A DNA stretch of 64,000 nucleotides from Ralstonia soli (GTDB taxonomy: Bacteria; Pseudomonadota; Gammaproteobacteria; Burkholderiales; Burkholderiaceae): positions 1 through 64,000 of the forward strand of contig NZ_JAMXHT010000006.1 of assembly GCF_023955655.1 (NCBI RefSeq), given 5' to 3'. Positions 10,399-39,469 of the stretch are shown piece after piece. The notes under the pieces were generated by a model, which saw only the letters and a program-made list of their open reading frames with translations, was not told the DNA's origin and ran no database searches. The stretch's first letter is position 1. The number at the start of each line of letters is the position of its first letter. Position numbers and translations under genes: made by a program.

Positions 10399-10464
10399 GG
10401 TGTCTCCAATATGTTATTTGCGTGAACGCCGCGATGGCGCTCCCGCTTGTTATGTGTCGAGCCG

Positions 10465-12983: not shown

Positions 12984-13173
12984 GTCTCCTCATCGATCAG
13001 TTTTTCGTTGTGAGTGATCTTAGATGCAGGGTTGCTCGTACCGCCATTCGGATTCGGAGCAGGGCCGCCAAGCGCGTGAAAGCACAGCATTAGGCCAAAC
13101 CGCCCGCAACCGCTTTCGATCATTCGGATATGAAAAGAGCCCCACCGACGGGTGCCTGTTTACGCCCGGCACA

Positions 13174-13195
13174 ACTACAATCTGATTCGTGTAGT
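13174..13195. promoter_or_regulatory. Candidate operator for the TetR regulator
   Basis: A 22-base element with perfect six-base arms (actaca ... tgtagt) and a 10-base spacer lies in the 269-base gap between the divergent TetR and acyl-CoA ligase genes. It is 58 bases before the regulator start. TetR dimers bind short inverted repeats in such gaps and usually repress both sides. Arms this short could occur by chance. Confidence 0.35.
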
Positions 13196-13252
13196 AACAG
13201 CCATAAAACAAGGGCGCCGCAGGCACTGTCTTTCAGGGAGGAAACACGAACT

Positions 13253-13909: not shown

Positions 13910-13947
13910 CGTAACTTGTGGCCAGCCCCTCCACAGCACACCACACG

Positions 13948-14883: not shown

Positions 14884-14942
14884 GGCCGTATCATCCTTGA
14901 GTTGATGTGCCGGCTCTCGGCCGGCTCGCGTGGGTGTACCGC

Positions 14943-15791: not shown

Positions 15792-15841
15792 GACTGCTAC
15801 CTCCGGTAAACATTGGAAATGGCGCTCTTCGCTACCTGCTA

Positions 15842-18174: not shown

Positions 18175-18178
18175 GTTC

Positions 18179-23519: not shown

Positions 23520-23980
23520 TGCTCCTGGACGGCAGGGGCCACCGCTGTTGCTCGATACCGCGCTGCGAATTCTGCAGGCGGTTGGCAATTCAATACGCTG
23601 TGTGGCCGCGCCTCGTTGTAATCCTGGCGCCAGGCTGCGATGAGAGCGCGTGCATGGCAAGGCTCGTGAACCAGTGCTCGTTCAGGCACTCATCGCGGAA
23701 CCGCCCGTTGAAGCTCTCGATGTAGGCGTTTCTCCACTGGCTTGCCGGGCCGGATGAACGACAGCGTGACGCCCGCTTCGTAGGCCCATGCGTCCAGCAC
23801 CTTACCAGCGAACTCCGGACCGTTGTCCACCGTGATGGACGCGGGCAAGCCTCGCATCTCCTTCAGCCGTTCAAGCACTTGCTTCACCCGCAAGCCCGGC
23901 AACGAGGTATCAACCTCGATGACCACGCACTCGCGCGTGTAATCGTCGACCACGTTCAGGCAAGCCAACGGATAACGCAT
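23520..23980 (-). pseudogene. IS3-family transposase OrfB fragment, frameshifted
   Basis: The minus-strand frame begins within the DDE domain (CLNVVDDYTREC, then ITVDNGPEFAGKVLD, which holds the second catalytic Asp, then SFIRPGKPVE). An extra A near 23738 shifts the frame. It continues in another frame as NAYIESFNGRFRDECLNEHW with the catalytic Glu, and shifts again before ALIAAWRQDYNEARPHS. The first catalytic Asp region and OrfA are missing. Two frameshifts and a 5' truncation make it dead. Confidence 0.85.
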
Positions 23981-24530: not shown

Positions 24531-25688
24531 TCAAAGGCTGCCAGCGAGTCGAGAAATTGCTTCCGCCGCATCTTTTACGAGGTCCTCGACAATTTGTTGT
24601 GCTGGCCTGGCTTTTGTCAGTAGCCCTCCGCCGATACCGCTGGGATTGCTGTGTAGGTCCCATCGTCCGGCAGCTGCCGCTGCCGCATTGAAATCATCCA
24701 TCAACACCTTTTGATACGGATTTGCGAGCGGTTCCAAGCCGGAGTCTTCCCATGCTTTGATCGTCGCGTTTCGGAAACCACGCATCGGACTACCAGAGTA
24801 AATTCGGTCGCTGCGAAAATCTTCCAGGCGGCCTTTCAGAATCTGCGATTTGTGCTCGGCCGGAATATTGCACTCCTCGGCAACCAGGAAGGCTGTCCCT
24901 ATCCAGACGCCGACCGCGCCGAAAGCTAACGATGCCGCAATACCGCGCCCGTCGCTAATGCCGCCGGCCGCGATGACGGGCACGGGAACCGAGTCGACGA
25001 CATCAGGCAGCAGTGCGAAATTCGGGATTCGACCTACATGACCACCCGCCTCCAGACCTTGTGCGATGACAAGGTCAGCACCCGCTGCTGCGTAACTTCT
25101 TGCTTGCTTAGTGCTCGTAGCCAGGCCCATCACAAGCATTCGCTTCTCGTGTGCTGGTCCCGCAATCAGCTTCAGGTCGCCAACAGCACCGGCGAATACC
25201 TGCACGTCCTCCTCGAGGACCACGTCGATTAGGCTACGAGTAAGCTCGGCGCGTGAGCCCCGGAGTCCCGCATCCGTACCATCCGCTGTAGCAGCGCCTG
25301 ACACGGCAATTCGGCTGTCCAACTCAACCAGTTCAATGCCGAATCCCTTTGCGAGGTCGCGTACAAAGGCCACATGCTCTGGAAACTCTTTCAGGATCTC
25401 TTGTCGAATCCGGCTTCTGTCCAACTCCGCTTTCGCTGTGGCTTGTGGCAGAACGAGATTGACGCCAATCGGCTTGGTGGTCAATGCTCTAACCTCTCGG
25501 ATAACAGTGCGTAGCCGTGCAGCGGAAAGGCCCGCCCCTCCGATAACGCCCAAACCGCCCGCTTCCGAGACTGCCGCAACGAGGGCCGGAGGTGTTGCTC
25601 TCCCTTGAGACCCCATTCCAGCGAGGCATATTGGATAGTTGATATCAAGCAGTTCGCACAGTCGCGTCCTGAGATGAATGTTTGTCAT
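24531..25688 (-). CDS. Nitronate monooxygenase-type FMN oxidoreductase
   Basis: A 385-residue TIM-barrel flavoprotein of the NMO/2-nitropropane dioxygenase family. Motifs are INYPICLAGMGSQGRATPP, GGLGVIGGAGL, the phosphate-binding segments GLEAGGHVGR and VIAAGGISDGRGIAASLA, and GTAFLVAEECN. The ATG follows GGAGA. It is the third gene of the operon led by the FAD monooxygenase, 17 bases after the M29-like gene. Family members oxidise alkyl nitronates, but some act as NAD(P)H:quinone reductases or enoyl reductases. Its operon partners suggest a step on an aromatic-derived intermediate. Confidence 0.85.
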   Translation of the reverse strand: MTNIHLRTRLCELLDINYPICLAGMGSQGRATPPALVAAVSEAGGLGVIGGAGLSAARLRTVIREVRALTTKPIGVNLVLPQATAKAELDRSRIRQEILKEFPEHVAFVRDLAKGFGIELVELDSRIAVSGAATADGTDAGLRGSRAELTRSLIDVVLEEDVQVFAGAVGDLKLIAGPAHEKRMLVMGLATSTKQARSYAAAGADLVIAQGLEAGGHVGRIPNFALLPDVVDSVPVPVIAAGGISDGRGIAASLAFGAVGVWIGTAFLVAEECNIPAEHKSQILKGRLEDFRSDRIYSGSPMRGFRNATIKAWEDSGLEPLANPYQKVLMDDFNAAAAAAGRWDLHSNPSGIGGGLLTKARPAQQIVEDLVKDAAEAISRLAGSL

Positions 25689-25704
25689 GTAAATCTCCTA
25701 GATG

Positions 25705-26742
25705 TCACGACCGCGCCAGGATCTCGTCCGCTTCGCTCAACTCGTCGGGAACAATGAGAACTCCATGATCAATCACGAGGACCTCATCGACATACACGCT
25801 GTGCTCAATGCATACGGCGTCCGGGTGATTTTCTCCCCCTCCCTCCTCCCACCATGGGGTGCCAAACCCGATCGCATCGCTACCGCGCACGCGAATGTCT
25901 TCGTTGAACGATTTCCCTGTGAAGCGCGCCCTCGGATGAAACCCGTGGGAAAAGTGGATGATTGAACCAAGCCCACCAGCGCTCGCCCTTCGCAGCGCCG
26001 CTTCGAAGACTTTTCGGTGACTACCTCCACCAGCAACGCTACGGATAGGGCCATCCACATCAATGGTAAGCGGCTCATCTAAGCGCGCATACCACTCATG
26101 GAAGACAGCATTCACCACCACCTTACCCTTTACAGATGCGGGGTCTGGAATCATGACCGTTGAGCCAGGAGGCGACGTGGTGCCTGGCACGGACTGGCGT
26201 CGCAACTTTCCCGCCTTGGGCTTTCCAAGAACAAAAGTCACATCAGTCCCTTGATCATTCACTACCCGGCAGCGCTTTCCTTCCGCCGCGGCAATGAAGC
26301 TGTCCAATCGCGTCTGGACTGAGAACAGCCGATCAAAATCGAGATCTCCGAACAATCGAATGAGCCCGTCCGCCCCAAGGTCGAGGATGTTCACGGACCT
26401 CATGCGCCCCTGAGACAATGCCTCTGCGTGAGCCGCGGACCCACTGATGTATGGGAAGGTGAAATCAACCCACACGTCACAACTCTTTAGTCCTGCGGAT
26501 ACCGCTTCCGTAAGGTGCGGATCCGCCAGCTTCCCCTGATATGGCAACTGAGGAATTGTCAGAATGCACACCTTTGCACCATGAACGCGTGCTGCCTGCG
26601 CGACGGCGAGGACGGCAGTCATGTCGGTGCATAGGTCAGCGGTAAGCAGCACCTCCTCGTTTGGAGATAGGCGCAAATAGTCACTGAGCAGAAAATCTGC
26701 GGCTTGGGCAAGCGACGTTGAATCAAATTCTCTCTTCATCAT
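25705..26742 (-). CDS. M29-fold metalloenzyme resembling 2,5-dihydroxypyridine dioxygenase (NicX)
   Basis: This 345-residue protein has the fold pattern shared by M29 aminopeptidases and NicX ring-cleaving dioxygenases. An N-terminal Rossmann-like domain covers about residues 1-170. In the C-terminal part are H266 (HFSHGFHP) and an H-x-D pair at H306/D308 (ENHPDA), which fit the His, His, Asp iron ligands known for NicX. The Gly-Glu metal motif of true M29 peptidases reads Gly-Ser here (S194), which argues against a peptidase. It lies between a salicylate-hydroxylase-like monooxygenase and a flavin oxidoreductase, which suits ring opening of a hydroxylated pyridine or related ring. A peptidase assignment cannot be excluded. 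Confidence 0.65.
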   Translation of the reverse strand: MMKREFDSTSLAQAADFLLSDYLRLSPNEEVLLTADLCTDMTAVLAVAQAARVHGAKVCILTIPQLPYQGKLADPHLTEAVSAGLKSCDVWVDFTFPYISGSAAHAEALSQGRMRSVNILDLGADGLIRLFGDLDFDRLFSVQTRLDSFIAAAEGKRCRVVNDQGTDVTFVLGKPKAGKLRRQSVPGTTSPPGSTVMIPDPASVKGKVVVNAVFHEWYARLDEPLTIDVDGPIRSVAGGGSHRKVFEAALRRASAGGLGSIIHFSHGFHPRARFTGKSFNEDIRVRGSDAIGFGTPWWEEGGGENHPDAVCIEHSVYVDEVLVIDHGVLIVPDELSEADEILARS

Positions 26743-26788
26743 TTTGGACTTGGGTGGTTCTTCATATCAGATGGATATGCGGCCGCCG

Positions 26789-27979
26789 TCAGACATGGAC
26801 TGCATTCGCGTCGTACTCGTAAATCCAGTCATACCAGTCGCCAACTTTGCTCGGAGCCCAGTGCTGCGAGATGTAGTCGACTGCCGTATTAGGGTTCGCA
26901 AGCGCCTCGTTGTGCCGACGCTTGGATTGGGCCCAAGATTGATCAACGACCTTCTTCGTGCGTGGCTGGCGAAGGCTTTCGTACCAACCCAACGCGAGCT
27001 CCCAATCGGGAGCATATTTCTCGACGCATCTGGCGAAGACAACCGCATCTTCGATGGCCATGTTTGCACCCTGGCCCAACGATGGCGGCATCGCGTGACA
27101 AGAATCGCCCAAGAGCGTAATCCGCCCCTTCGACCATGACTTCTCTGTCTCGTAGAGGTATGACCCCCATTTGTATGGGGTTTCGATATGAGAGATGATG
27201 CTACGAATGTTCGGGTGCCAGCCCTCGAAATCCGCCAGGCACTCCTCGATGGAGCCACTCTCCGTCCACGAGTTGGTATGCCAGTTCGGCTTCTTGACGG
27301 TCCCCACAAAGTTGAATAGCTCGCCCTTGTGAACGGGGTACATCGTCACATTGCCTTGTGGCGAGATCCAACTGCTGGCGACGCCACGCTCTCGCTCCGG
27401 CACCTTCTCAATCGGAATCATTCCGCGCCAGAAGATGTTTCCAACGTACTGGGGCTTTGGAGTTCCATGGAGTTGTTCGCGAACCGCTGAGTGGATGCCA
27501 TCTGCACCGACCAGCATCTGACCCGTTGCCGTCATGCCGTTCTCGAACTTGGCCACCACCCCACTGGACGAGTTGAACACGTCAACGCACCGATACCCTG
27601 TCCGCACGGCGTCCGCTTTCCTTTCCTTCACGGCGTCGAGCAGCATGGTGTGCAGGTCGCCGCGATGCATCGTTAGATATGGGGCACCGTAACGCAGCTC
27701 TGATGTGCTGCCCTGGTTCTGCAGCGGCCACGCCTGTCCAGTGTTCCAGAGGCGCAACTCACGGTCGCGAGATAGAACACCTAGTTCGCGAATCTGAGAC
27801 TCCAAGCCGAGTGAGAAGAGAAGCCGCGTACCGTTCGGGCTGAGCGTGAGACCAGCCCCAATCTCCTGCAGATCGGGAACGCGCTCATACACCTCAACGT
27901 CGTGACCGCGGTGGAGAAGGGCCAGTGCCGTGGCAAGTCCTCCAATGCCACCTCCAATCACCAAGGTTTTGCTGTCCAT
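26789..27979 (-). CDS. FAD-dependent monooxygenase, salicylate/6-hydroxynicotinate hydroxylase-like
   Basis: A 396-residue class A flavoprotein hydroxylase. FAD motifs are VIGGGIGGLATALALLHRG, MLVGADGIHSAVREQL and ITLLGDSCHAMPPSLGQGAN; the C-terminus ends DWIYEYDANAV, as in salicylate hydroxylases and NicC. Where NicC has a substrate histidine after beta-2 (AGIHIGPN), this protein has threonine (AGLTLSPN), so the substrate probably differs. It is the first gene of a three-gene operon and is divergent from the acyl-CoA synthetase gene. Oxidative decarboxylation or ring hydroxylation of an aromatic carboxylate is expected. Confidence 0.83.
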   Translation of the reverse strand: MDSKTLVIGGGIGGLATALALLHRGHDVEVYERVPDLQEIGAGLTLSPNGTRLLFSLGLESQIRELGVLSRDRELRLWNTGQAWPLQNQGSTSELRYGAPYLTMHRGDLHTMLLDAVKERKADAVRTGYRCVDVFNSSSGVVAKFENGMTATGQMLVGADGIHSAVREQLHGTPKPQYVGNIFWRGMIPIEKVPERERGVASSWISPQGNVTMYPVHKGELFNFVGTVKKPNWHTNSWTESGSIEECLADFEGWHPNIRSIISHIETPYKWGSYLYETEKSWSKGRITLLGDSCHAMPPSLGQGANMAIEDAVVFARCVEKYAPDWELALGWYESLRQPRTKKVVDQSWAQSKRRHNEALANPNTAVDYISQHWAPSKVGDWYDWIYEYDANAVHV

Positions 27980-28110
27980 ACACTCATCCTTTTTTGTTCG
28001 GTGCTCGAATAGCGTCCGACGACTGGAATGAGTCTAGCGATGCCGCAAGTGGAGGAGAACGTACGCTACCTCGCTAGCAGCTATACAAAAATTGCGAGGT
28101 CCATCCACGA

Positions 28111-28188
28111 CAGCTATAGCTGGTATCGAATAGAGCCTGTAGTCAGCAGATTCAGAATCCATAGAATCCGTAACACCACTCGGATTAA
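28111..28188. promoter_or_regulatory. Palindromes in the divergent module C promoter region
   Basis: The 283-base gap between the divergent monooxygenase and acyl-CoA synthetase genes holds a perfect 12-base palindrome, cagctatagctg, at 28111-28122. It also holds an inverted repeat aatccg/cggatt at 28167-28188 with a 10-base spacer. A related half, gcagctata, occurs at about 28077. These are candidate regulator sites. The likely protein is the LysR encoded at 32206-33171, but it is distant and no direct link is visible. Confidence 0.4.
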
Positions 28189-28262
28189 TGCTTATACCTC
28201 CGGACTGGCATCTGAGCTCCGCAGCCGCGGCACACACCCCGCCCCCACTCACAGGACATCAC

Positions 28263-29900
28263 ATGGCGTTGTCAAACTCCCTCTTTCTCGACTATGACAT
28301 CCGAAAATTGACGATCGGAGAGATTCTTGAGAAGCGCGCAGCAGAAATCGGTGACAAGGTCTATCTGACCTACCTGGAAACCGGGCGCCAGTACACGTAT
28401 GCGGAAATCAACAGCATCACGAACCGCTGGGCCAATAGCCTGATTTCCATGGGTATTGGGCGCGGCACTCATGTGGCCGTCATGATGGATAACTGCGCAG
28501 AGCAGCTTCTTCTGTACTTTGCCCTTGGGAAAATTGGTGCGGTGACAGTCCCGATCAATACCGCATCTCGTGGGGACCTGCTTAAGTATTACTTGGAACT
28601 GGCGGATGTCGAGGCTGTATTTGTCGACCTGACATTGCTCGATCGCATCACCGAAGTGCGCGCCGAACTTCCGAAGCTGACGAGGGTGATTGGGACCCCT
28701 ACCACGGCTGCCGACGCCGAAGCAGAGAAACCGGACGGGTCATACATCCGATTCTGTGCTCTCGATGATGGCGCTGATGCTCCACCGACGGAGCGCGCTG
28801 TTTACTCCGACCCTGCGTTCATTGCCTTTACATCCGGAACGACCGGTCCATCCAAGGCCGTGATCTTCGGCCAAGCGGCAATGCTTCTGACAGGGCTCAA
28901 CTATGCGCGAAGCTACGGCTACGCCAATACTGACGTCTACTACATCTGCCTCCCCTTGTTTCACGCTAGCGCCCTGCGAGGAGCAGCATATCTGTCTCTG
29001 ATGTCGGAGGGCTCAATCGCTCTTACACGACGATTTTCGGTATCTCGCTTCTGGAGCGACGTCAGGAAAGCGGGGGCAACCACGTTTAATCTGCTTGGCT
29101 CCATGGCGAACTTCATCTGGAGTACACCGCCGTCTCCGGAGGACAAAAACCACAACGTTCGATTCTGCCGCGTCGCCCCTGTGCCGAAATTCGCTCGGGA
29201 GTTTGAGGAGCGCTTCAACGTGCGCTTCGTGTCGACCTATGGCTTGACGGACGTCGGTGCACCAGTTTCTTACACACTCAATGACCCACGAGAGAAGCTC
29301 GGCTCGTGCGGACGTGCACGTGACGGCTGGGAAATCATGATTGTCGACAGCGAGGATTTCGAAGTCCCACGGGGTGAAGTGGGAGAAATTGTGATTCGCT
29401 GCAATGTACCCTGGCACACGTCGTCGGGGTACTACAAGATGCCTCTGCAGACGCTGGCAATGATCCGGAACGGCTGGTATCACACGGGCGATCTGGGTTA
29501 CATGGACGAGGACGGCTATTTGTATTTCAAGGACCGCGCCAAGGATTCCATTCGTCGCCGAGGAGAAAACATTTCTGCCTGGGAAGTCGAGCAGACCATC
29601 CAAAATCATCCCGCAGTGCAGGAGGTAGCCGCCTACGCTGTGAAGTCGGAGCTGAGCGAAGACGAAGTGGCCGTCAGCATTGTTTTGCGCACCGACCAAC
29701 AACTCAGCGAAGTCGCTCTCATCGAATACTGCGCGTCGAAGATGGCCTACTTCATGGTTCCTCGCTTCGTGCAGTACGTCAACGAACTTCCCGTCAATGC
29801 GAGCCAGAAGGTTCTCAAGGTCAAGCTGCGTGAAGCAGCACAGGAAAATCCGGAGCTACTTTGGGACCGGGAGAAGGCAGGCATCGAAGTACGCAGATAA
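28263..29900 (+). CDS. AMP-dependent acyl-CoA synthetase (CaiC-like)
   Basis: A 545-residue ANL-superfamily ligase. Motifs in order are IAFTSGTTGPSKAVIFGQ (ATP loop), YGLTDVGAP (A5), WYHTGDLGYMDEDGYLYF (A7), RAKDSIRRRGENISAWEVE (A8) and ASQKVLKVKLRE with the A10 lysine. The ATG at 28263 gives MALSNSLFLDYD; a longer in-frame start at 28188 lies in the promoter region. Closest in style are crotonobetaine/carnitine-CoA ligases. It is divergent from the monooxygenase operon and ended by a strong terminator, so it may be transcribed alone. It would activate the module C acid or a ring-opened product. Confidence 0.88.
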   Translation: MALSNSLFLDYDIRKLTIGEILEKRAAEIGDKVYLTYLETGRQYTYAEINSITNRWANSLISMGIGRGTHVAVMMDNCAEQLLLYFALGKIGAVTVPINTASRGDLLKYYLELADVEAVFVDLTLLDRITEVRAELPKLTRVIGTPTTAADAEAEKPDGSYIRFCALDDGADAPPTERAVYSDPAFIAFTSGTTGPSKAVIFGQAAMLLTGLNYARSYGYANTDVYYICLPLFHASALRGAAYLSLMSEGSIALTRRFSVSRFWSDVRKAGATTFNLLGSMANFIWSTPPSPEDKNHNVRFCRVAPVPKFAREFEERFNVRFVSTYGLTDVGAPVSYTLNDPREKLGSCGRARDGWEIMIVDSEDFEVPRGEVGEIVIRCNVPWHTSSGYYKMPLQTLAMIRNGWYHTGDLGYMDEDGYLYFKDRAKDSIRRRGENISAWEVEQTIQNHPAVQEVAAYAVKSELSEDEVAVSIVLRTDQQLSEVALIEYCASKMAYFMVPRFVQYVNELPVNASQKVLKVKLREAAQENPELLWDREKAGIEVRR

Positions 29901-29931
29901 CTTCTCTGCCCCGTCGATACGAGGTGGTTAT

Positions 29932-29958
29932 ACGGCCCAGATTGGGCCGTTTTTTTTT
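29932..29958 (+). terminator. Rho-independent terminator after the acyl-CoA synthetase
   Basis: The hairpin acggcccag-att-gggccgt is followed by a run of about nine T residues, 32 bases after the stop codon. This is a textbook intrinsic terminator. The remaining bases to 30149 hold no gene that I can support. Confidence 0.85.
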
Positions 29959-30149
29959 GGGGGGAGACTATCGTCTTCAATCTGCTCTAAAAACGTCCTC
30001 CAGAAAGTCGGAGATTGATGTGCCAGAGCAGCTTCGCATATCAGCAATCCAGTTCCATGCCTATCTCACCATTGAGCCCTCTGGCAATCTAGTTTCCACA
30101 GCCACAGCACCCTGCGCCGGCAGTTGCGCGGGAAACAGCGCAAACCAAG

Positions 30150-30986
30150 ATGACCATTTCCTACTCGACAGAACCAGAGCCAACCCGCGCTCGGGCAGAG
30201 CTTTTGCTGCCGGGCATCCGCCGCATCGTGGCGAACAATCCTGGTCCGCTCACATACCACGGCACGAACACGTATCTATTGGACCACGCAGAAGGCACGG
30301 TAGTGATCGACCCTGGGCCGGCAGAAGATTCAGCGCATATCGATGCCATTCTTGCGGCAACCCCGGCTCAGATCACGAAGATTCTGCTGACTCATGCACA
30401 TCGGGACCACATCGGGGCGCTGGATGCCTTGGTGGCAAAAACGGGGGCCACAACATATGCCTTCCGATATCCAGTCGAACAGGGATTCCAACCCGATGTG
30501 TCGCTTGCCGATGGCGACATAGTCGCTGGCCTAGACGTGCTCTATACCCCGGGACATTGTTCGGACCATCTATGCTTCGCCCGGCGCGATGGCATCGTCT
30601 TCACTGGAGACCATGTCATGGGCTGGTCTAGCTCGTTCGTGGCCGCACCGGACGGAAGCATGGCCCAGTATCTAAGCAGCTTGGCGCGCCTTTTGGCCAG
30701 AGATGACAACTGCTATTTAGCAGCGCACGGCCCTGCTCTCTACGACCCGAGAGCCTACGTCTCCGAGCTGGTTGAGCTGAGGCGACGAAAAGAAGCAAGC
30801 ATCCTGGACGCGCTTCGCAGCTTCCCCCCTATTTCGATCGAGGATCTTCTGCGGATCTCGTATCCCAAAGCGGTCGATCCCCGTATACGACGAGCCGCGC
30901 AGCGCACCCTTCTCGCCCATCTCATCAAGCTGAAAGACGACGGCACCGCTCAACTGATTGATGACCTCTGGTCGATCAGGAGATAA
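30150..30986 (+). CDS. MBL-fold metallohydrolase (LACTB2/glyoxalase II-like)
   Basis: A 278-residue metallo-beta-lactamase-fold hydrolase with the zinc motif THAHRDHIGALD, a third histidine in TPGHCSDHL, the bridging aspartate in FTGDHVMGW and a last histidine in AAHGPAL. A C-terminal winged-helix-like tail (SIEDLLRISYP onward) matches the LACTB2 subgroup. The ribosome site before the ATG is weak. Relatives cleave thioesters, lactones or phosphodiesters. Between an acyl-CoA synthetase and a porin, a CoA-thioester or lactone hydrolase role is plausible but unproved. Confidence 0.83.
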   Translation: MTISYSTEPEPTRARAELLLPGIRRIVANNPGPLTYHGTNTYLLDHAEGTVVIDPGPAEDSAHIDAILAATPAQITKILLTHAHRDHIGALDALVAKTGATTYAFRYPVEQGFQPDVSLADGDIVAGLDVLYTPGHCSDHLCFARRDGIVFTGDHVMGWSSSFVAAPDGSMAQYLSSLARLLARDDNCYLAAHGPALYDPRAYVSELVELRRRKEASILDALRSFPPISIEDLLRISYPKAVDPRIRRAAQRTLLAHLIKLKDDGTAQLIDDLWSIRR

Positions 30987-31081
30987 GCCAACGGGCCTCG
31001 CGTCGCTCTGACGCAGCTTTCGCAAGACATTGATTTCAACGTAGCACCACAACCACAACGTACTTAAGGGAGCGTCCTGTC

Positions 31082-32131
31082 GTGAAATCACATCGAAAAC
31101 CCCTAGCACTCCTGCTGTTGACGGGGTCGATATCTTGCGCAAGTTCGGCAATGGCCCAGAGCTCGGTCACGCTCTACGGAGTCGCTGGTACCAACATCGC
31201 TTACACCAGCAACAATAGTGGAAAGACTGGCACCGGCAACCTTGTTTCGTTAAACAGCGGAGGGCTTTCATCGCCGAGGTGGGGAATTCGGGGTTCGGAA
31301 GCGCTATCAAGTGACCTCAAGGCGATTTTCCTTCTTGAGAATGGCTTTTCCAATGATACGGGCGCGTTGGGAGACTCTACACGGCTGTTCAACCGCCACG
31401 CGTATGTTGGCCTCTCCACCAGTGCCTATGGAACGGTCATCGCTGGTCGCACATCCTCCACGATGTACGACTTTATTCTGGACTTCGCCCCCCAAGCATA
31501 TTCAACGACCTTCGAGCCGTACAACAGCCTCGCGTCGCAGCGAGTCGACAACGCCGTGAAGTACACCGGCGACTTCGGCCCAGTTCGCGTTGGAGCCTAC
31601 CGGTCGTTTGGTGAACAACCCGGCGGCATGCAAGCGAATAGCGCGTGGGGTGCGGCAATTGAAGCATCGGCTGCAAACCTTTCCGGCACCGTCGCTTTCG
31701 ACACGCTCTTTGGAGCGCCAACCGCCCAGGGATATACGGCCTCAAAGAGGCTTGGGGCCGCCGTTTCGTATGAATTCTCGAAGACATCGATCATGGCCGG
31801 CTATCGCTGGGGACAGGACACCAGCGCAACGCGTGCAGTGACGTTCCGAGACAACCTCTGGTGGTTCGGCGTCAGGCAACAAGTCTATGGCCCGTTGACC
31901 TTGATCGCAGCCTACTACTACGATGACGTACGCGTCCAAAACGGTACCAATCCCCCCAATCCCTGGCAGGCAGCGGTGTCAGCCATTTACTCGCTTTCAA
32001 AGCGGACCGACTTGTACGGGTCGGTGGCCTACGCAAAGAACGCTGGCCTTAACTTCACCAGCGTGGCGAATCTAGACAACCCGAACATTGGCCAAACGGG
32101 CGTGGCGCTTGGTATCCGACATAAGTTCTAG
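31082..32131 (+). CDS. Outer-membrane general porin (module C)
   Basis: A 349-residue burkholderial porin starting at GTG after AGGGAG. The signal peptide ends at SAMA-QSSVTLYG and the last residues are GIRHKF with terminal Phe. It is third in the rightward set of module C, 95 bases after the MBL hydrolase. It converges with the LysR gene across an inverted-repeat hairpin. It likely serves the outer-membrane step for the substrate that the Tct system then imports. Confidence 0.9.
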   Translation: MKSHRKPLALLLLTGSISCASSAMAQSSVTLYGVAGTNIAYTSNNSGKTGTGNLVSLNSGGLSSPRWGIRGSEALSSDLKAIFLLENGFSNDTGALGDSTRLFNRHAYVGLSTSAYGTVIAGRTSSTMYDFILDFAPQAYSTTFEPYNSLASQRVDNAVKYTGDFGPVRVGAYRSFGEQPGGMQANSAWGAAIEASAANLSGTVAFDTLFGAPTAQGYTASKRLGAAVSYEFSKTSIMAGYRWGQDTSATRAVTFRDNLWWFGVRQQVYGPLTLIAAYYYDDVRVQNGTNPPNPWQAAVSAIYSLSKRTDLYGSVAYAKNAGLNFTSVANLDNPNIGQTGVALGIRHKF

Positions 32132-32144
32132 CAGGTAAAGAGCC

Positions 32145-32175
32145 ACCGGTCCGCGATAAGAAGTAGCGGACCGGT
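32145..32175. terminator. Hairpin between convergent porin and LysR genes
   Basis: Perfect 10-base arms accggtccgc and gcggaccggt enclose an 11-base loop, centred in the 74-base gap between the two convergent stop codons. There is no long T run, so its strength is uncertain. Its position suits a two-way transcription stop. Confidence 0.6.
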
Positions 32176-32205
32176 AGCGTCCCCCAATGAGGTTGCGCAT
32201 AGGCA

Positions 32206-33171
32206 CTACTCGGTTTCAATACCACTAAGATCGTCCTGAATGCGGTTGAGGTTGCAGTCAACAGTCCCCCTGAGCACACCGGATTCCACAAACCTCAACG
32301 CCTCTGCATGAATGACCCGAAGGAGCGAGCGCGCTGCAGGGGAAATTGGCTGGTTGAGCGGTGTTGCAGCGACCAAAAGGGCTCGCATATCAGGTGATGC
32401 TATCTTCCTTGCGACCAGCCTGCCCATGCGAATCTCGCGATGCACGGCTCCAAAAGGCAAGATGGTGGCTCCCATGCCGGCACCCGCCAACTGCCGAAGT
32501 GCTGGAATCGAGTCGACTTCCATCACGATATTGAGCTTGATGCCAGCCTGCTCGGTTGCTCGCTCGATTACACGCCGTAGTCCATTCTCCGGACCAGTTA
32601 GAACCAGCGGCATGCCCTCCAGCTCGTGCAGTTCTACATCTCGATCTGCTGGCATCTCGCGATTCTGTATCAGAAATAAGTCTTCTAAGATCAGCGGTGC
32701 CGCGTTCAGATTGCGATTTCGCGCGGCATCGTAGAGTACCGCGACATCAAGAAGCCCCTCCTCTATCCATTCGCCCAACGAGCTACTGAACCCTTCCTTT
32801 ACGCGAAGACCTGCGCCCGGACAGACCTGCCGGAAGTGCATAGCAATGGGTGATACCAGAGTGGCCCCAATCGATGGGGGGACACCGAGAGTTACGCGCC
32901 CTTGCGGTGTTCCGCCGCTTTCCACTAGCTCCCGTTTCACGTCTTCCAATAGGCACAGGATCGTGTTGGCTGTGTTCTGGAGCTGCACGCCGGCATCCGT
33001 CAAGACGACGCCTCGGCCGTGGCGGTAGAACAGCTCATGCTTAAGTTCTTCCTCGAGCTTCCGAATATGGCGGCTCAAGGATGGCTGCGCCATCCCGATG
33101 GTTACCGAAGCCCGAGAGAAGCTTCCTGCCTTGGCTACTTCAACAAAGTAGCGTAGTCCTGTGATGTCCAC
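32206..33171 (-). CDS. LysR-family regulator (CatR/CbbR-like) of module C
   Basis: A 321-residue regulator starting at GTG after GAGAGG. The helix-turn-helix lies at about residues 3-60 (LRYFVEVAKAGSFSRASVTI, then AQPSLSRHIRKLEEELKHEL). The effector domain begins near residue 92 (GRVTLGVPPSIGATLVSPI). It follows the Tct binding-protein gene on the same strand, separated by a strong hairpin, so it may have its own promoter. Its first half resembles the LysR of module D (AGSFxRA, AQPxLSR, SSLxEWxxxxxxDVAVxY), suggesting related effectors. Confidence 0.88.
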   Translation of the reverse strand: MDITGLRYFVEVAKAGSFSRASVTIGMAQPSLSRHIRKLEEELKHELFYRHGRGVVLTDAGVQLQNTANTILCLLEDVKRELVESGGTPQGRVTLGVPPSIGATLVSPIAMHFRQVCPGAGLRVKEGFSSSLGEWIEEGLLDVAVLYDAARNRNLNAAPLILEDLFLIQNREMPADRDVELHELEGMPLVLTGPENGLRRVIERATEQAGIKLNIVMEVDSIPALRQLAGAGMGATILPFGAVHREIRMGRLVARKIASPDMRALLVAATPLNQPISPAARSLLRVIHAEALRFVESGVLRGTVDCNLNRIQDDLSGIETE

Positions 33172-33229
33172 CTTGCCTCTCCTCTATTTCGGAATATGCA
33201 CATCTTAGCCACAGCTGGGCAAAATGAAA

Positions 33230-33272
33230 CGAGCTGCCGATACACCAAAAAATCGGTGCGTGCGGCAGCTCG
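33230..33272 (-). terminator. Terminator hairpin after the Tct binding-protein gene
   Basis: Perfect 10-base arms cgagctgccg and cggcagctcg enclose a 23-base loop containing a six-A run. Read leftward from the binding-protein stop, the hairpin is followed by tttcatttt. It would end the transcript of the leftward hydrolase-Tct operon and insulate the LysR gene beyond. Confidence 0.65.
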
Positions 33273-33302
33273 CGATTGAGGCTTCTCGCGTTACAGCATG
33301 TC

Positions 33303-34328
33303 CTACTTGCTCACCCGGATCGCTTTTGCCCGCGCAATCACGTCCGGACTGAACTGATCGGTTCGCGTGAGCTTCTGCAGCTCCGCCCCGCTCATCGGAT
33401 CAAACCAAGTGTGCGATGTCTTGATCTCGGCAAGTAACGCGGGATCTTTCAGCATTTCATCGAAGGCATCTCGGAGGATCTTGATGCGTTCAGCGGGAAC
33501 ACCCGGGGGCGCGGTGATGTGTTGACCGAGCGTAACCGCCGTGAGGAAAATATTCAGGACCTCACGGTCTTTGGGTGAGCTAACGAATTCGGTTACAGCA
33601 GGAACATCAGGAAGTTGGCTGCTTCGCGTCGGCGTGTACTGGACGAGAAACCTCACTGCTCCGTCCTTCAGCCAGCTCGGTCGGAGCGAATACAGCGAAT
33701 TGATACCGATCGTCGCACCATCCGCCTCGCCACGCTCTGCGGCGAGAATAGTGGACGCCGAGTCCCGGTATCCCGAAACGAATTTGAATTTCGTGCCGAC
33801 CAGGTGATTCATGACGTTGGGAAAGACTTGAACCAACGAGGCCGGTGCCGTCGTTCCCAGCACCGTCTCTGTGCTCTTCGCATCGGCGATCGACTTGATC
33901 TTGCTATCGCTCGACCGGACGAACGTCAGATTAATCCCACTAGCAACGCGGCCGATCATGTTGAACTCAGCCGCCTTGAAGGAAACCCCAGGGCTTCCCA
34001 GCAAGTCCTCTACGATAATGTTTGCCGGCAGCTGCCCCAGCATTGTGCCGTCTTTCCTACCCTTTCGGTAAAGGTAGTTCGCGGCGGCGAGGCCGCCGGC
34101 ACCAGGCATGTTTTGGGCAACCACGTTGGGGTTACCGGGAATGTGCTTCCCTAGGTGACGTGCAACGAGGCGACCAATGTAGTCAAAACCCCCGGGGCCG
34201 GATGCAATAACAATTTCGATGGTTTTCCCTTGGTAGAAGTTGGCATCGGCAGCGATGGCTGGTGCGGCTGCAGCACAAGCAGCAATCAAGCAAGCCCGGC
34301 CAGCAAGGGCGGTGAACAAAATCTTCAT
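33303..34328 (-). CDS. Bug/TctC-family periplasmic binding protein
   Basis: About 341 residues with a Sec signal peptide (MKILFTALAGRACLIAACAA, cleaved near AIAA-DANFYQG). Family motifs are GKTIEIVIASGPGGFDYIGR, NVVAQNMPGAGGLAAANYL and the C-terminal region with DAFDEMLKDPALLAE. The start follows AAGGAGA. Bug proteins bind carboxylates and deliver them to TctAB permeases. The permease gene lies just upstream with 46 bases between, so this is a complete tripartite system. The ligand is probably the aromatic or heteroaromatic carboxylate degraded by module C. Confidence 0.9.
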   Translation of the reverse strand: MKILFTALAGRACLIAACAAAAPAIAADANFYQGKTIEIVIASGPGGFDYIGRLVARHLGKHIPGNPNVVAQNMPGAGGLAAANYLYRKGRKDGTMLGQLPANIIVEDLLGSPGVSFKAAEFNMIGRVASGINLTFVRSSDSKIKSIADAKSTETVLGTTAPASLVQVFPNVMNHLVGTKFKFVSGYRDSASTILAAERGEADGATIGINSLYSLRPSWLKDGAVRFLVQYTPTRSSQLPDVPAVTEFVSSPKDREVLNIFLTAVTLGQHITAPPGVPAERIKILRDAFDEMLKDPALLAEIKTSHTWFDPMSGAELQKLTRTDQFSPDVIARAKAIRVSK

Positions 34329-34374
34329 GGCAGTCTCCTTTCGCAGGTGTAATACCTGTCTATATGTCTGCAAG

Positions 34375-36450
34375 TTACATCGATGGAATGACACCTTTTA
34401 GGACAGGAATCCAGTCTCCGACGAAAGACCCTGGCCATGGGATAAGAAGAAGCCTGTCAAACACCAGGTAGACAAATAGTGTCGTGCCAATCGACAGCAT
34501 TGCGGTCGTCCTCCAGCTCTCCCTGCCCTCCAGCCGCATGTAAGCCACAATGAACAGCGGTACCGTCGGAATCAAACCTATGAGTGCCATGGACGTCATA
34601 AACAGCAGAATCCAACCGAAGAAGATGGCGGAGCGAAGCAGCACCGTACGCTGGCTGAGATTCTCGAAGTTGCCGCCGACGTCCATATGGATCTTGTCGG
34701 GATTGCCCGTCGTCACGGTCGATCTGAATACCTCGTTCAACAACGCGATCGAGCAGAAGGAAATGGCAGCTATGCCAACGATCATCGGAATAATCTTTGC
34801 TGCAAAATTCCATTCTATTGTTTGGCTCACAAGAAAGGCGAACGCGCAGAGCATCACCACATGGAGCCAGTTGGTGGCCCGCCAGTGGGGCTTGGAGAAG
34901 CCAGACAGCATTCCACGGATACCACCATGTGCACGTACGTCCTGATACAGCGGACCCAGGATCGCGAACGCCGCCAGCAAGAACAACGCCGCCACAACAG
35001 GTCGCGTGATCCAATCCATTCCGTAGCGCTCGATTGAAATAAACATATACCGTTCAACGATCGAACCCAGAATGAATCCGAGTACAAGCGGAGGACGTGG
35101 CCACTTGGCATGCTTCAAAATCGAACCCAACACACCGAACACGAACAGCGAAACGAGATCCCCCCAACTGCGCTGCCCTTCGAATGCGCCAACGAAAACG
35201 AAGCAGAGGACCACTGGCAGAATCAAGGTGTAGCGCAGCGTTGCAAGCTTTGCAAAGTGGCCCGAGAACAGGAAGCAAAGGCCGGACCCCAGAATGTTGG
35301 CTAACGCAACGCTCCAGATCATCGCGTAAGTGAGATCCAGGTGTTTCGTCAGCATTTCCGGACCGGGAACCAATCCGTGCATAAGAAAAGCGCCTTGCAG
35401 CAGCGCCATACCTGCCGAGCCCGGTACACCGAACACGATGGCCGGTACCAGGGCTCCACCTTCGCGCGAATTGGCCGCGCTCTCCGCGGCGATAACACCA
35501 CGGACATCCCCTTTGCCAAATGTCTTGGAGGCATCCTTCTCAGTCTTCAGTGCGTGGCCATAGGAAATCCACTCGATGACTGAAACGCTAATTCCCGGCA
35601 CGGCTCCAACTACGGCACCAATCCAGGAGCACCGCAAAATAAGGAACCAATGACGGAAGCAATCTCGCAGACCATCCAAAAGCCCCGGCTGGAGCACTCG
35701 CCGCCATCCGCGACGCTGAGCCAAATCAGAGCTAGACGTTGGAACCGCGTCACCCACGAGGCAGGTACGGCTGACTGCCAAGTCACAGAGCTCCGGCAGC
35801 GCAAACAGACCCAATGTCAGCGGGACAAGTGGCAGGCCATCCAGAAGATAATCTAGGTCCCATGTCCAACGATCCGTAGCAGTCTGCGTATCAGGTCCAA
35901 TCATCGCCAGCATTACGCCAAAGCAGGCAACCGTGAGACCGCGCAGAGGCGTCCGACCCGAAAGAACTGCGACGAGAGACAGTCCCAGTACTGCCATCGC
36001 CAGTAGCTCTGGCGAACCGACATAGAGGATGGCGGGCTTGATAACGGGGATGGCAACCCCCATCAACAATGCGCCAAACAGCCCTCCCAGCATTGCGGAG
36101 AAATATGCCGCCCCCAAGGCTCTTCCGGCTTCCCCTCGCTTTGTCATTGGGAAGCCGTCTAGCGTGGTTGCCGCCGAAGCAGCCGAACCGGGCGCTCCAA
36201 GCACGATGGCGGAGATTGGATCTCCAATGGTAACCGCTGAAAGTAGTCCCAGCAAAAGAGCGATAGCGGTTGCGGGGTCCATGGCGAACGTGAATGGCAG
36301 CAGAATCGCCACCCCCGCAACTCCTCCAATCCCCGGAATTATCCCCACCGCCAAACCAATCGTCACGCCACCAAACAAGAACAACAACCGATGCGGCTCA
36401 AGCAGCGTAACCAACGCCGCCCCTACCGCTCCAAGCACATTCGCATCCAC
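34375..36450 (-). CDS. Tripartite tricarboxylate transporter permease, TctA fused to TctB
   Basis: A 691-residue inner-membrane protein starting at GTG after AGGAGA. Residues 1 to about 510 form a normal TctA permease (IGLAVGIIPGIGGVAGVAI, FTFAMDPATAIALLLG, GAPGSAASAATTLDGFPM, REGGALVPAIVFGVPGSAGM). The last 170 residues (ATNWLHVVMLCAFAFLVSQT onward, four spans) correspond to the small TctB subunit, which is usually a separate gene. Such long fused forms are known but less common than separate subunits. It sits between an alpha/beta hydrolase gene (22 bases) and the binding protein. Confidence 0.88.
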   Translation of the reverse strand: MDANVLGAVGAALVTLLEPHRLLFLFGGVTIGLAVGIIPGIGGVAGVAILLPFTFAMDPATAIALLLGLLSAVTIGDPISAIVLGAPGSAASAATTLDGFPMTKRGEAGRALGAAYFSAMLGGLFGALLMGVAIPVIKPAILYVGSPELLAMAVLGLSLVAVLSGRTPLRGLTVACFGVMLAMIGPDTQTATDRWTWDLDYLLDGLPLVPLTLGLFALPELCDLAVSRTCLVGDAVPTSSSDLAQRRGWRRVLQPGLLDGLRDCFRHWFLILRCSWIGAVVGAVPGISVSVIEWISYGHALKTEKDASKTFGKGDVRGVIAAESAANSREGGALVPAIVFGVPGSAGMALLQGAFLMHGLVPGPEMLTKHLDLTYAMIWSVALANILGSGLCFLFSGHFAKLATLRYTLILPVVLCFVFVGAFEGQRSWGDLVSLFVFGVLGSILKHAKWPRPPLVLGFILGSIVERYMFISIERYGMDWITRPVVAALFLLAAFAILGPLYQDVRAHGGIRGMLSGFSKPHWRATNWLHVVMLCAFAFLVSQTIEWNFAAKIIPMIVGIAAISFCSIALLNEVFRSTVTTGNPDKIHMDVGGNFENLSQRTVLLRSAIFFGWILLFMTSMALIGLIPTVPLFIVAYMRLEGRESWRTTAMLSIGTTLFVYLVFDRLLLIPWPGSFVGDWIPVLKGVIPSM

Positions 36451-36472
36451 GCCATCTCTCCTGAATGATTGA

Positions 36473-37366
36473 CTAGCCGGGCAAGCTGCTACCGTGGCGC
36501 CGGCGGATCAACGAGGCTTCAACACCAATAAACGAGCGAATCAACCCGTTGAACTCTGCTGCGCGCTCCCGGAATACCAGGTTGCCAGCCCGGTTAACGA
36601 TTCGAAGATGCGCGGATGGCTGCTTCTCTAAGAGAAGCCCATACAAGGAGAACGCATGCTCGATCGGGATAATCTGGTCTTGGAGACCCCAGATAAGTTG
36701 TATAGGCGCAGGGAACCCTTCGTCCCGAAATTTTGCGAAACATACCGACTTCGCTCGAGATATCGACGCCTTCATCGTAACCACCGCCTCAGGCGCCAAG
36801 TCTTTTGTGGCACTCACGGAAGCTACGTCTTCTAGGAAGGCCCCCTCTCCAATATGAGTCTCTGAGAAGGACATCCTTTCCATAAGCCATGCCTGTCCAT
36901 GGCGATCAGCACTAGGAGAGGGACATCCCGCGAGCGCGAGACTGGCGATCCCATCCCCCGTCGGAGCGGCCCGGGAACCGACCAACGTCACGGAGGAAAC
37001 GCGCGCCGGCGATGCATACGCAAGATTCAAGGCAATGATGCCGCCTTCATCGTGCCCAACGAGGTGCACCGGTCCAGGGCATACGACGTCGGCAAACTTA
37101 CTAGCATGCTTTGTCATCTGCTCGATGGTTACTACCGCATCAGGCGCAACCCGCGTATGACCCATACCAAGAAGATCCGGAGCAAGAACGCGAAACTCCT
37201 CACCAAGCGCGTCTAGATTCCGCTCCCAGATGAAGGCGTTTTGCCTCAACAGGCTCGCAGGTGTTCCTCCGTGAAGAAAGATCACCGTTTCACCAGTTTT
37301 ACCTGCACTGACGTAGCGCGTTGAGACTCCGTCCAAATCAACCGTACAAATTTCCAAGACGCTCAC
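36473..37366 (-). CDS. Alpha/beta hydrolase-fold protein with Asp nucleophile position and no catalytic His
   Basis: A 297-residue protein starting at GTG. The oxyanion motif is VIFLHGGTPASL, the elbow is LVGHDEGGIIALNLA with Asp where most hydrolases have Ser, and the acid region is LIWGLQDQIIP. Where the paralogue next door has the catalytic histidine (NEAGHHPFREH), this one reads NRAGNLVFRER, so the His is Asn. The two are clearly paralogous (LAGCPSPSADR against LAGCPYPPYTR). Without His it may be inactive, bind a ligand, or run another reaction. It is the second gene of the leftward Tct operon. Confidence 0.8.
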   Translation of the reverse strand: MSVLEICTVDLDGVSTRYVSAGKTGETVIFLHGGTPASLLRQNAFIWERNLDALGEEFRVLAPDLLGMGHTRVAPDAVVTIEQMTKHASKFADVVCPGPVHLVGHDEGGIIALNLAYASPARVSSVTLVGSRAAPTGDGIASLALAGCPSPSADRHGQAWLMERMSFSETHIGEGAFLEDVASVSATKDLAPEAVVTMKASISRAKSVCFAKFRDEGFPAPIQLIWGLQDQIIPIEHAFSLYGLLLEKQPSAHLRIVNRAGNLVFRERAAEFNGLIRSFIGVEASLIRRRHGSSLPG

Positions 37367-37449
37367 CCATTGAAGTATGCGAAAGACTGCTCGACTACCG
37401 CGGACTGCTCAGAGCAAAGACACAAGGCCCTGATGGCCGTACATTCCCG

Positions 37450-38331
37450 CTAGTGCGCATTTCTTTTTGCAAATCGCATCAACAGGTCGTTGAAGTGTTC
37501 GGGATGCTCACGAAATGGGTGGTGCCCGGCCTCGTTGATGACTGACATGGAGCTCTGACGTTCGTGAGCAGCAATCATCCTGAAGAGCTCCAGCCCGCGG
37601 CTGACAGACGCCGTCCGGTCGTTCGCTCCCCAAATCACTTGGGTGGGCCGGCCTAGTCCACCATCGCCTAGCCATTGCAAGAGTTCCCTTTTCAGCTGCG
37701 CCAGCCGCGGAAGGAAGATGCCCTCCTTGACGCCACCCTGCATGATGCGAACGCCCTCTTTGTATTTAGGTAAGTTCAAGACTTCAAAACCCGCTTCGAC
37801 GTACTCGGGTGTGACTGAGGCCGATGAGAATGCAGACCGCTCCATCACCCACCGCTGGCTCTCTCGCGTGTACGGCGGGTAGGGGCAGCCGGCCAGATTG
37901 ACGTCTGTCATGCCCACACCAGGGGACAGCGTGCTGGTATTGATTAGCGTGCAGGTACCGACCAGATCTGGTCGAAATTTGGCGATCGCCACAACCGGAA
38001 GTGCACCGGCGGACTGACCGACAAGATGAACGTTCTTCAACCCGAGCTTGTCGAGAAAAGCGATCAGGTGTTCAACGACCGCTTGCATCGTGAAGTCATC
38101 GTGAAGCGGATTTGCTGTATGGCCCTGGCCCAGCTTCTCTACAGCGATTACATGGAATGCGGTCGAAAGCGCATCGAAATTCCGATCCCAAGTCTGCACA
38201 ACCGAGGTGGCTGTCGGATTCCCGAAGTGGCCTCCGGTGATCAACAGCATGGGCGGGCCCTCGCCCTTCGCAAAGTAGCGAGTCTGAACCCCGCCTACGT
38301 CGACCCAGCCCGGCTCTACACCCATTGACAT
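37450..38331 (-). CDS. Alpha/beta hydrolase, meta-cleavage-product-hydrolase-like
   Basis: About 293 residues, starting at MSMGVEPGWVDVGG six bases after GGAG. The oxyanion region is MLLITGGHFGNPT, the nucleophile elbow is LVGQSAGALPVVA with Ser, the acid region is VIWGANDRTASVS and the His is in NEAGHHPFREHPEHF. The full triad is present. The layout resembles C-C bond hydrolases such as BphD/MhpC and the NicD deformylase group. It leads the leftward operon with its non-canonical paralogue, the TctAB permease and the Bug protein. It would act after ring cleavage in module C. Confidence 0.83.
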   Translation of the reverse strand: MSMGVEPGWVDVGGVQTRYFAKGEGPPMLLITGGHFGNPTATSVVQTWDRNFDALSTAFHVIAVEKLGQGHTANPLHDDFTMQAVVEHLIAFLDKLGLKNVHLVGQSAGALPVVAIAKFRPDLVGTCTLINTSTLSPGVGMTDVNLAGCPYPPYTRESQRWVMERSAFSSASVTPEYVEAGFEVLNLPKYKEGVRIMQGGVKEGIFLPRLAQLKRELLQWLGDGGLGRPTQVIWGANDRTASVSRGLELFRMIAAHERQSSMSVINEAGHHPFREHPEHFNDLLMRFAKRNAH

Positions 38332-38847
38332 GTCACACTCCAAAAAGGATTCCCCGCACTAGGAAGGCAACTTTCTGCACCAAACCAGGCCATCTATGGG
38401 GTGCCAAGCGAAGAAGCTGCGTTTGTGCTTTTAATCACTCTACTGGAGGCAACGCTCTCGAATAAGGCGGATGGAAACCATAGCCGCTATACAGCAATTG
38501 CATAGGTGCAGGCCAAGGGGCACCCGGGGATGCCGCAAATCACGTCGCAGGAGACGTGATTTGGACCCGCCCGCGCCGCGAGAGGAGCGGCCATTTCAGG
38601 GTTTACTCGGTCCGGCCGCTCATCTCCCAGACAGACAATGTGTGATGTCTCTGGTAGAAACTAGGGCGCTCCGCTTTGCGACATGCCTCGACCTCGTCCA
38701 GCGCCATTACCTCCTGCATGTGTACTTGGGGATACCGAAGACTTGGCACACGCAACTTGGGGGGGCCATCCTGACTGCGGCTGGCGCCCAGGGTAGACAG
38801 AGCGCGCCGCCGTACCGACGAGGCAGAAATCGCTCGCGCAATACGAC
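38332..38847. other. Gap upstream of the hydrolase-Tct operon, no gene seen
   Basis: The first 150 bases should hold the promoter of the leftward operon; no clear sigma-70 boxes or repeats were resolved by eye. From about 38500 the sequence is G/C-rich, with short open frames lacking ribosome sites and recognisable products. It merges into the decayed ParB-like region and is probably the edge of a degraded insertion. Confidence 0.4.
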
Positions 38848-39145
38848 GTGTCGCGCGAACTGTGGTGTGGCCCTTACCAAGGACTAATTAGGCTGCCTGG
38901 GCTACGCAAGTGGACGGGATACTTCGACCATGCGCTCATCAAGCAGTTGTTCGTAACGTTCCACCAGCAGGGAATGCCACGCCACAAGATGCTTGATTAC
39001 TTTGAGCAGTACCCCGAACTGCCTCGCCCTTCCTCAGGCTCGCTCCGAAAAAACGGGCCGCTGCCATACCAAGTTTCTCAAGATGATCCAAGCAGATTTT
39101 CAGGAGGGATGGGCGCCTGAATATAAGCCATGCGAGCCTGGATAG
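38848..39145 (+). pseudogene. Decayed gene fragment upstream of the ParB-like remnant
   Basis: One frame reads YFDHALIKQLFVTFHQQGMP, then HKMLDYFEQYPEL. Near 39050 the coding sense passes to another frame (KFLKMIQADFQEGWAPEY, then a stop at 39143-39145). The 5' part is missing. I do not recognise the family. It sits 26 bases before a ParB-like fragment, so the two may come from one mobile element or phage-like operon. Confidence 0.45.
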
Positions 39146-39171
39146 CCCGGACGCTTCGCCAAGAGCAACGC

Positions 39172-39465
39172 ATGGCCACCCCAACTCGCAAGGGACTACC
39201 CTCCGGCACCCCAAAACCTCGTCCTCTCGACGTCAACTATCGGCCCACCGAAGTCCTGCACCCTGACCCGCGAACCGCACGGTTGCACAGTCCGCGCCAG
39301 CTCCGGCACCTGACCGGGAGCATCCAGTCCTTCGGCTTCAACGTACCGATCCTGATCGACGCCCATAATCGCGTTTTTGGCCGGCCACGCCCCCTGCTAG
39401 CTTCCCAAGAACTAGGGCTACGGCAGGTTCCCAGCATTCGATTGGAGCACCTGTCAGCCGCTTGA
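39172..39465 (+). pseudogene. ParB-like nuclease-domain protein, truncated
   Basis: The frame from MATPTRKGLP encodes a recognisable ParB/Srx N-terminal domain: VNYRPTEVLHPDPRTARLHS, then LRHLTGSIQSFGFNVPILID, then VPSIRLEHLS. The catalytic GHGR-type stretch reads FGRPRPLLASQE and is damaged. The frame stops 98 codons in, where full proteins continue for several hundred residues, often into a DNA methyltransferase. At that point it runs into the ROK pseudogene, marking a deletion junction. Confidence 0.7.
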
Positions 39466-39469
39466 CGCA

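Follow-up and report, generated by a model that had tools for sequence, protein, structure and literature searches.

The stretch analysed here (the window; 64,000 nucleotides, positions 1 to 64,000 of Ralstonia soli contig NZ_JAMXHT010000006.1) carries the eleven genes of a candidate catabolic island at 24531-38343, all of which, including every gene named in the original prediction, were recovered from the open reading frame (ORF) list and from Pfam and NCBIfam matches. The best explanation, which we regard as probable, is that the island is a mobile-looking, horizontally acquired set for the catabolism of an aromatic, most likely N-heteroaromatic, carboxylate, whose ring would be opened by a NicX-like protein. 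The genes of a flavin-dependent monooxygenase (FMO), of the NicX-like protein and of a nitronate monooxygenase-type (NMO) flavoprotein lie head to tail, in this order, on the (-) strand. Because the intergenic gaps measure just 46 bp and 16 bp, these three genes likely constitute one operon, as originally proposed.

Comparison of folds and of sequence profiles places the NicX-like protein with NicX rather than with the M29 peptidases; it shares the NicX fold, and NicX was the sole solved relative returned by the profile search. No Pfam or NCBIfam model matched the protein, its identity to NicX is 17-24% (24% to a NicX-type protein), and members of its family are annotated as "hypothetical protein" in the records of the Agrobacterium sp. 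T29 plasmid (L012) and the Variovorax SRS16 plasmid (L011; L numbers denote loci and G numbers genomes). In a tree of 16 proteins, the eleven NicX-like proteins were set apart from the NicX-type proteins with support of 100/100; L003 was flagged as a long branch. In addition, genome G764 has a NicX-type gene besides two NicX-like ones, and both types are also present in L011 and L063; therefore, neither type is simply a substitute for the other.

In the part of PMC7910607 that was available, H265, H318 and D320 are given as iron ligands of NicX, which is described as a subtype-defining ring-cleavage dioxygenase with just 2,5-dihydroxypyridine as reported substrate. The residues H263, H306 and D308 of the window protein, which align with these three (alignment and HMMER mapping), are invariant in 11/11 family members. 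The metal residues had been predicted as H266, H306 and D308; the latter two stand, and the first metal His is H263, H266 being replaced in four of the eleven members (L011, L035-L037). The NicX substrate residue Glu177 is exchanged for Lys in 8/11 members and for Arg in 3/11, and Arg181 is invariant in the family. In the column of NicX H189, the window protein has Thr, and His is found in three members (L035-L037); the region of NicX H105 gives a gapped alignment with the window protein. The exchange of Glu177 together with the invariant Arg181 suggests that the ring still carries its carboxylate at opening, unlike 2,5-dihydroxypyridine. Iron is the presumed metal, and the protein would act as a dioxygenase. 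Since features of NicX fail (Ser302, taken up below, Glu177 and, in the window protein, H189), the NicX-like proteins are filed apart from NicX, though they would work like it; they form a distinct, uncharacterised sister family.

The gene partners were compared at 21 places, defined as NicX-like tblastn matches of at least 100 bits in 21 supplied sequences; L070 (60 bits) was dropped, L064 is counted twice, L065 and L066 are partial, and the Cupriavidus-type remnants L002, L005, L010, L013 and L016 are excluded. The reference proteins stem partly from the same loci, hence self-matches are included. On the same strand and within 3.5 kb, an FMO is present at 4/21 places (the window, Ralstonia sp. 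25mfcol4.1 (L006), a Rhodospirillales metagenome-assembled genome (MAG; L007) and L008) and a Rieske oxygenase at 10/21, together 14/21; in T29, the FMO lies in the same run, 6.9 kb off. The Rhodospirillales MAG has two alpha/beta hydrolases (AB2 and AB1), the FMO and the NicX-like gene in a single run. Within the same limits, the large subunit of a molybdenum (Mo) hydroxylase is found at five of the 21 places (L008, L034, L062, L064 and L067), and in L034 and L067, the genes for the Rieske oxygenase, the NicX-like protein and the FAD, 2Fe-2S and Mo subunits are consecutive. Similarly, in L036 and L037, a reductase-like frame with a 2Fe-2S domain (by Pfam for L036) stands between the Rieske and NicX-like genes. 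G767 and G768 each have a single PF00848 match in the genome, and it lies beside the NicX-like gene, a placement with a chance of about 0.001 in each case. Hydantoinases follow in L009 and L007. Mo-hydroxylases of this family often hydroxylate beside a ring nitrogen, and it is mainly because they recur near NicX-like genes that an N-heteroaromatic ring is preferred. With dipicolinate, the attacking enzyme is a Rieske oxygenase; no report of this turned up in the literature searched. The predicted substrate class, an aromatic and probably N-heteroaromatic carboxylate outside the standard nicotinate and picolinate sets, is thus favoured by a distinct NicX-like family that stands beside ring and molybdenum hydroxylases elsewhere.

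Some of these loci carry further genes of interest. On the SRS16 plasmid, a nic-type cluster (L011:19794-24954; NicX-type enzyme, hydrolase, isochorismatase, FMO, and 2Fe-2S and FAD subunits) lies about 7 kb from the NicX-like/Rieske operon. At L063:128-2308, the gene after that of a Rieske oxygenase encodes a protein with 38% identity to the NicX-type enzyme of SRS16, on a contig that also carries a NicX-like gene; pairing with Rieske oxygenases may thus extend to NicX-type enzymes. Genome G964 (L064, L065, L066) has four NicX-like places, two of them partial, which suggests several heterocycle routes.

The FMO matched PF01494 with 98.3 bits (cut-off 22), and its best PDB matches include tropone 2-monooxygenase at 230 bits, the highest, and NicC at 189 bits. 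Its best NCBIfam model, 3-hydroxybenzoate 6-monooxygenase (NF006021), scored 250.5 bits, below the cut-off of 459, and all NCBIfam matches listed (25 of 70) were under their cut-offs. The His of the NicC GAGIH motif, which we take to be H47, is replaced by Thr in the FMOs of the window and L006, as predicted for the window; this is not a family trait, as L007, L008 and T29 carry His. Near the FMO relatives in Sagittula (47% identity) and Neorhizobium (46%), none of the annotated genes is NicX-like, and the Sagittula hypothetical protein resembles alpha/beta hydrolases.

The original prediction had a single hydrolase of meta-cleavage type. In fact, there are two, AB1 and AB2, and the label is not supported: AB2 scored 158 bits against monoalkyl-phthalate hydrolases vs 61 bits against meta-cleavage hydrolases, and the former are also the best solved relatives of AB1 (98 bits). 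At the Ser and His positions of the meta-cleavage hydrolases, AB2 alone has both residues in place. AB1 has a GHDEG elbow with Asp for the nucleophile Ser, as well as Asn for the usual His (window and Ralstonia), and its counterpart in L007 has Asp and Ser at those two positions. Since both hydrolases best match monoalkyl-phthalate hydrolases, they may act on an ester or amide linkage, or else on the product of ring opening. AB1 is possibly a partner subunit; it is paired with an intact AB2 in the Rhodospirillales MAG as well.

Among the other enzymes, the NMO matched PF03060 with 226 bits (cut-off 28), its nearest PDB entries being the putative nitroalkane dioxygenase 3bo9 and FabK-type enoyl-ACP reductases; it is 90% identical in L006 and distantly alike in T29 (37.6% over 125 aa). 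It may serve as an FMN reductase or as an oxidase of an intermediate. The acyl-CoA ligase is 94% identical in Ralstonia, with the alignment beginning at residue 16, and 50% identical over 280 aa to the T29 gene, as far as its sequence was covered; a start near 28233 is likelier. The best PDB match of the metallo-β-lactamase (MBL)-fold hydrolase is 4ad9 (103 bits), and a thioesterase function is possible. The LysR regulator is 96% identical in Ralstonia.

Ralstonia sp. 25mfcol4.1 carries the full set of eleven genes in unchanged order, with amino-acid identities of 73-96%. Between the two genomes, no internal stops were found, and dN/dS is 0.016-0.099 (own Nei-Gojobori script), ratios that are rough because dS, at 1.2-2.4, is near saturation. 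Given this collinearity and the low dN/dS, the whole set is under purifying selection, beyond what chance would give.

Strong NicX-like relatives are rare in the genome samples, which were even, overlapping draws and did not have Ralstonia sp. 25mfcol4.1 or Variovorax SRS16 among their matches. A search of genome contigs with the NicX-like query gave five loci, a Cupriavidus fragment among them. In the window's order, 4/399 genomes matched (E 0.001), namely its own genome, a Cupriavidus-like remnant and two distant matches; in the phylum sample, 5/398 matched, three of them weakly. The order of G764 gave matches in 8 of 43 genomes at E 0.001, five of them strong, and the class of G767 in 10 of 385 at E 1e-20, one at a mere 78 bits. 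In Cupriavidus (L010, L013, L002/L005), the NicX-like gene is reduced to its last third, in two frames, and adjoins an NMO gene with 84-89% identity (undivided in L002 and L010, split in two in L013; plasmid records NC_007971.2, NC_006466.1, NZ_CP046332.1 and NZ_CP076061.1). These pieces are a leftover of the same island.

We infer the following order of steps. The substrate would enter through the porin and the TctC/TctAB transporter, and AB2, with AB1, may hydrolyse an ester or amide, acting either ahead of the ring reactions or on the product of ring opening. The FMO would then place a hydroxyl on the ring, and the NicX-like protein, as a mononuclear non-heme iron dioxygenase, would open the hydroxylated ring. 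Finally, the ligase, the MBL-fold hydrolase and the NMO-type flavoprotein may process the acid or the opened product for CoA-dependent or central disposal.

Several observations weigh against the N-heteroaromatic interpretation. The fourth iron ligand of NicX, Ser302, is not kept; its place in the window protein is taken by Gly292 (MAFFT) or Phe293 (HMMER), and none of the 11 aligned rows has a Ser there. The predicted structure has a mean confidence score (pLDDT) of 77.9, and the substrate loop 177-189 falls below 50. Seven of the 21 places have no FMO or Rieske gene within the limits given above: L012 (FMO at 6.9 kb), L068 (Rieske at 5.3 kb), L063, L066, L064 twice, and L035, whose upstream sequence is unreadable (8501 bases N). 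Within the same limits, an alpha/beta hydrolase of the reference kinds occurs at 3/21 places, and an NMO of at least 100 bits is likewise found at three (the window, L006 and T29). The Mo-hydroxylase family also includes aldehyde and CO dehydrogenases. In line with the earlier remark that standard hydroxylases and amidases were missing from view, the eleven genes of the island showed no Mo-hydroxylase (NicAB), no NicF-type amidase and no NicE-type isomerase, and for the latter two the genome as a whole gave just weak matches (isochorismatase, best 32%; racemase type, 20%).

The most serious alternative, which we consider rather unlikely, is an island for a carbocyclic acid, such as a hydroxybenzoate or a phthalate-type monoester; the FMO would produce a para-diol, which the NicX-like protein would open in the manner of gentisate dioxygenase on a NicX scaffold. 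The likeness of AB1 and AB2 to phthalate-monoester hydrolases would suit such an acid, as would the 3-hydroxybenzoate 6-monooxygenase model that, among the matches listed and under its cut-off, fits the FMO best. The Lys or Arg of the loop would equally hold a benzoate carboxylate, and no N-specific enzyme (amidase or Mo-hydroxylase) was seen in the island. On the other hand, the Mo-hydroxylase subunits at five family places, the hydantoinases in L009 and L007, and NicX as the sole solved relative by profile argue against this alternative. An ordinary nicotinate or picolinate route, in which a diverged NicX would cleave 2,5-dihydroxypyridine while genes elsewhere in the genome supply the missing steps, is quite improbable. 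The shared fold and triad, a NicC-like FMO preceding a NicX-like enzyme, and the His in the His189 column of L035-L037 are in its favour, but the separate clade, the identity of 24% to a NicX-type protein, the Lys or Arg at Glu177 in all eleven members, the Thr at His189 in the window and the co-occurrence of both types in G764, L011 and L063 speak against it; likewise, a search of the own genome, run without a positive control, gave no NicX match. That the protein is an M29 aminopeptidase in a coincidental neighbourhood, an identity whose demonstration would have overturned the original prediction, is hardly credible and was rejected, since NicX is the better match by fold and profile, oxygenase neighbours recur, and PF02073 matched neither the protein nor its genome (0/1) vs 4/14 control genomes; the SRS16 NicX-type protein is likewise without a PF02073 match.

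Beyond the island, it is conceivable, although we lean against it, that a second NicX-fold dioxygenase family opens carboxylated hydroxy-N-heteroaromatics, served interchangeably by flavin, Rieske and Mo hydroxylases, and defines new pyridine-carboxylate routes that bypass 2,5-dihydroxypyridine. A sister family of NicX that keeps the triad but differs in the charge of its substrate loop would extend the range of known reactions that open heterocycles, and the family would serve as a marker for unannotated catabolic operons.

The ligase, MBL-fold hydrolase and porin genes lie opposite to the operon, the TctC and TctA-TctB frames overlap, and both hydrolase genes are upstream of these two (Table 1). 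The original end of the island, 38331, is an ATG four codons within the longest AB2 frame (37450-38343).

Table 1. Genes of the candidate catabolic island in the window.
Predicted product	Position	Strand	Remarks
NMO/FabK-type FMN flavoprotein	24531..25688	-	PF03060; operon gene 3
Putative NicX-like mononuclear-iron ring-cleavage dioxygenase	25705..26742	-	Metal triad H263/H306/D308
Single-component FAD aromatic monooxygenase (FMO; 3HB6H/NicC/tropone-monooxygenase group)	26789..27979	-	PF01494
AMP-forming acyl-CoA ligase	28188..29900	+	PF00501, 212 bits
MBL-fold hydrolase, LACTB2-like	30150..30986	+	PF00753 and PF17778
General porin	31082..32131	+	PF13609
LysR regulator	32206..33171	-	PF03466, PF00126
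TctC/Bug-type periplasmic binding protein	33303..34394	-	PF03401, 33 bits (cut-off 27)
TctA-TctB fusion permease	34375..36450	-	PF01970 and PF07331, single frame
AB1, alpha/beta hydrolase, Asp at nucleophile elbow	36473..37366	-	
AB2, alpha/beta hydrolase, Ser and His intact	37450..38343	-	Longest frame; ATG at 38331

The G+C content is 0.56-0.58 in the island, 0.58-0.62 in the left flank and 0.60-0.65 in the right flank. A fragment of an IS3-type transposase (rve domain; 23690-23980, (-)) adjoins the NMO end, and past the hydrolase end, at 38471-40464, there are short, broken-looking frames, one with a ROK-like match (39462-40082), which look like island-edge decay. No tRNA was found within the 64-kb window. 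Close to its left end lies a phage-type integrase with an Arm-binding domain (2357-3547, (+)). The window also has a second aromatic-type catabolic run (9532-19669, (-)), with an alpha/beta hydrolase, an acyl-CoA ligase, a glyoxalase-fold (extradiol-like) protein, an esterase, an amidohydrolase and a PF01494 monooxygenase (18662-19669, 256 bits).

No characterised gene set matching the island was found in the open-access literature: the available parts of the listed papers on nic, pic, nicotine, dipicolinate and isonicotinate degradation describe none, no paper was found for the NicX/NMO/Tct combination or the strain name "Agrobacterium sp. T29", and a search with the family name gave unrelated papers only. 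A riboflavin paper (one of PMC12746152 and PMC10293998) cites NicC/NicX work, and no matching cluster was found in the part available.

Among known systems, NicX (PDB 7cn3, 7cnt, 7cup) shares the fold and the His-His-Asp triad of the window protein, which differs in its separate clade, the lost Ser302 ligand, the replaced Glu177, the invariant Arg181 and the Thr at His189. NicC (5eow, 8uiq), 3-hydroxybenzoate 6-monooxygenase (3HB6H) and tropone 2-monooxygenase (8rqh) are FAD hydroxylases of the FMO's superfamily, from which the FMO is distinguished by its score below the 3HB6H cut-off and by the Thr that stands in place of the NicC His. The monoalkyl-phthalate hydrolases (8hgv, 8hgw) are the nearest solved counterparts of AB2 and AB1, although in AB1 the Ser is replaced by Asp and the His by Asn. 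The Agrobacterium sp. T29 plasmid (NZ_CP040642.1, 105-119 kb) has a NicX-like gene, a hydrolase, an NMO, TctBACC, an FMO and AMP-ligases in one run, with an Amdase/racemase-type protein, an acyl-CoA dehydrogenase and a CoA-binding protein in addition, and its TctA and TctB are separate. In general, the island and the nic pathway (NicAB, NicC, NicX, NicD, NicF, NicE) share a logic of hydroxylase, ring-opening dioxygenase and alpha/beta hydrolase, whereas the CoA ligase, the MBL-fold hydrolase, the NMO and the Tct uptake system are extra in the island, and its hydrolase comes from another branch.

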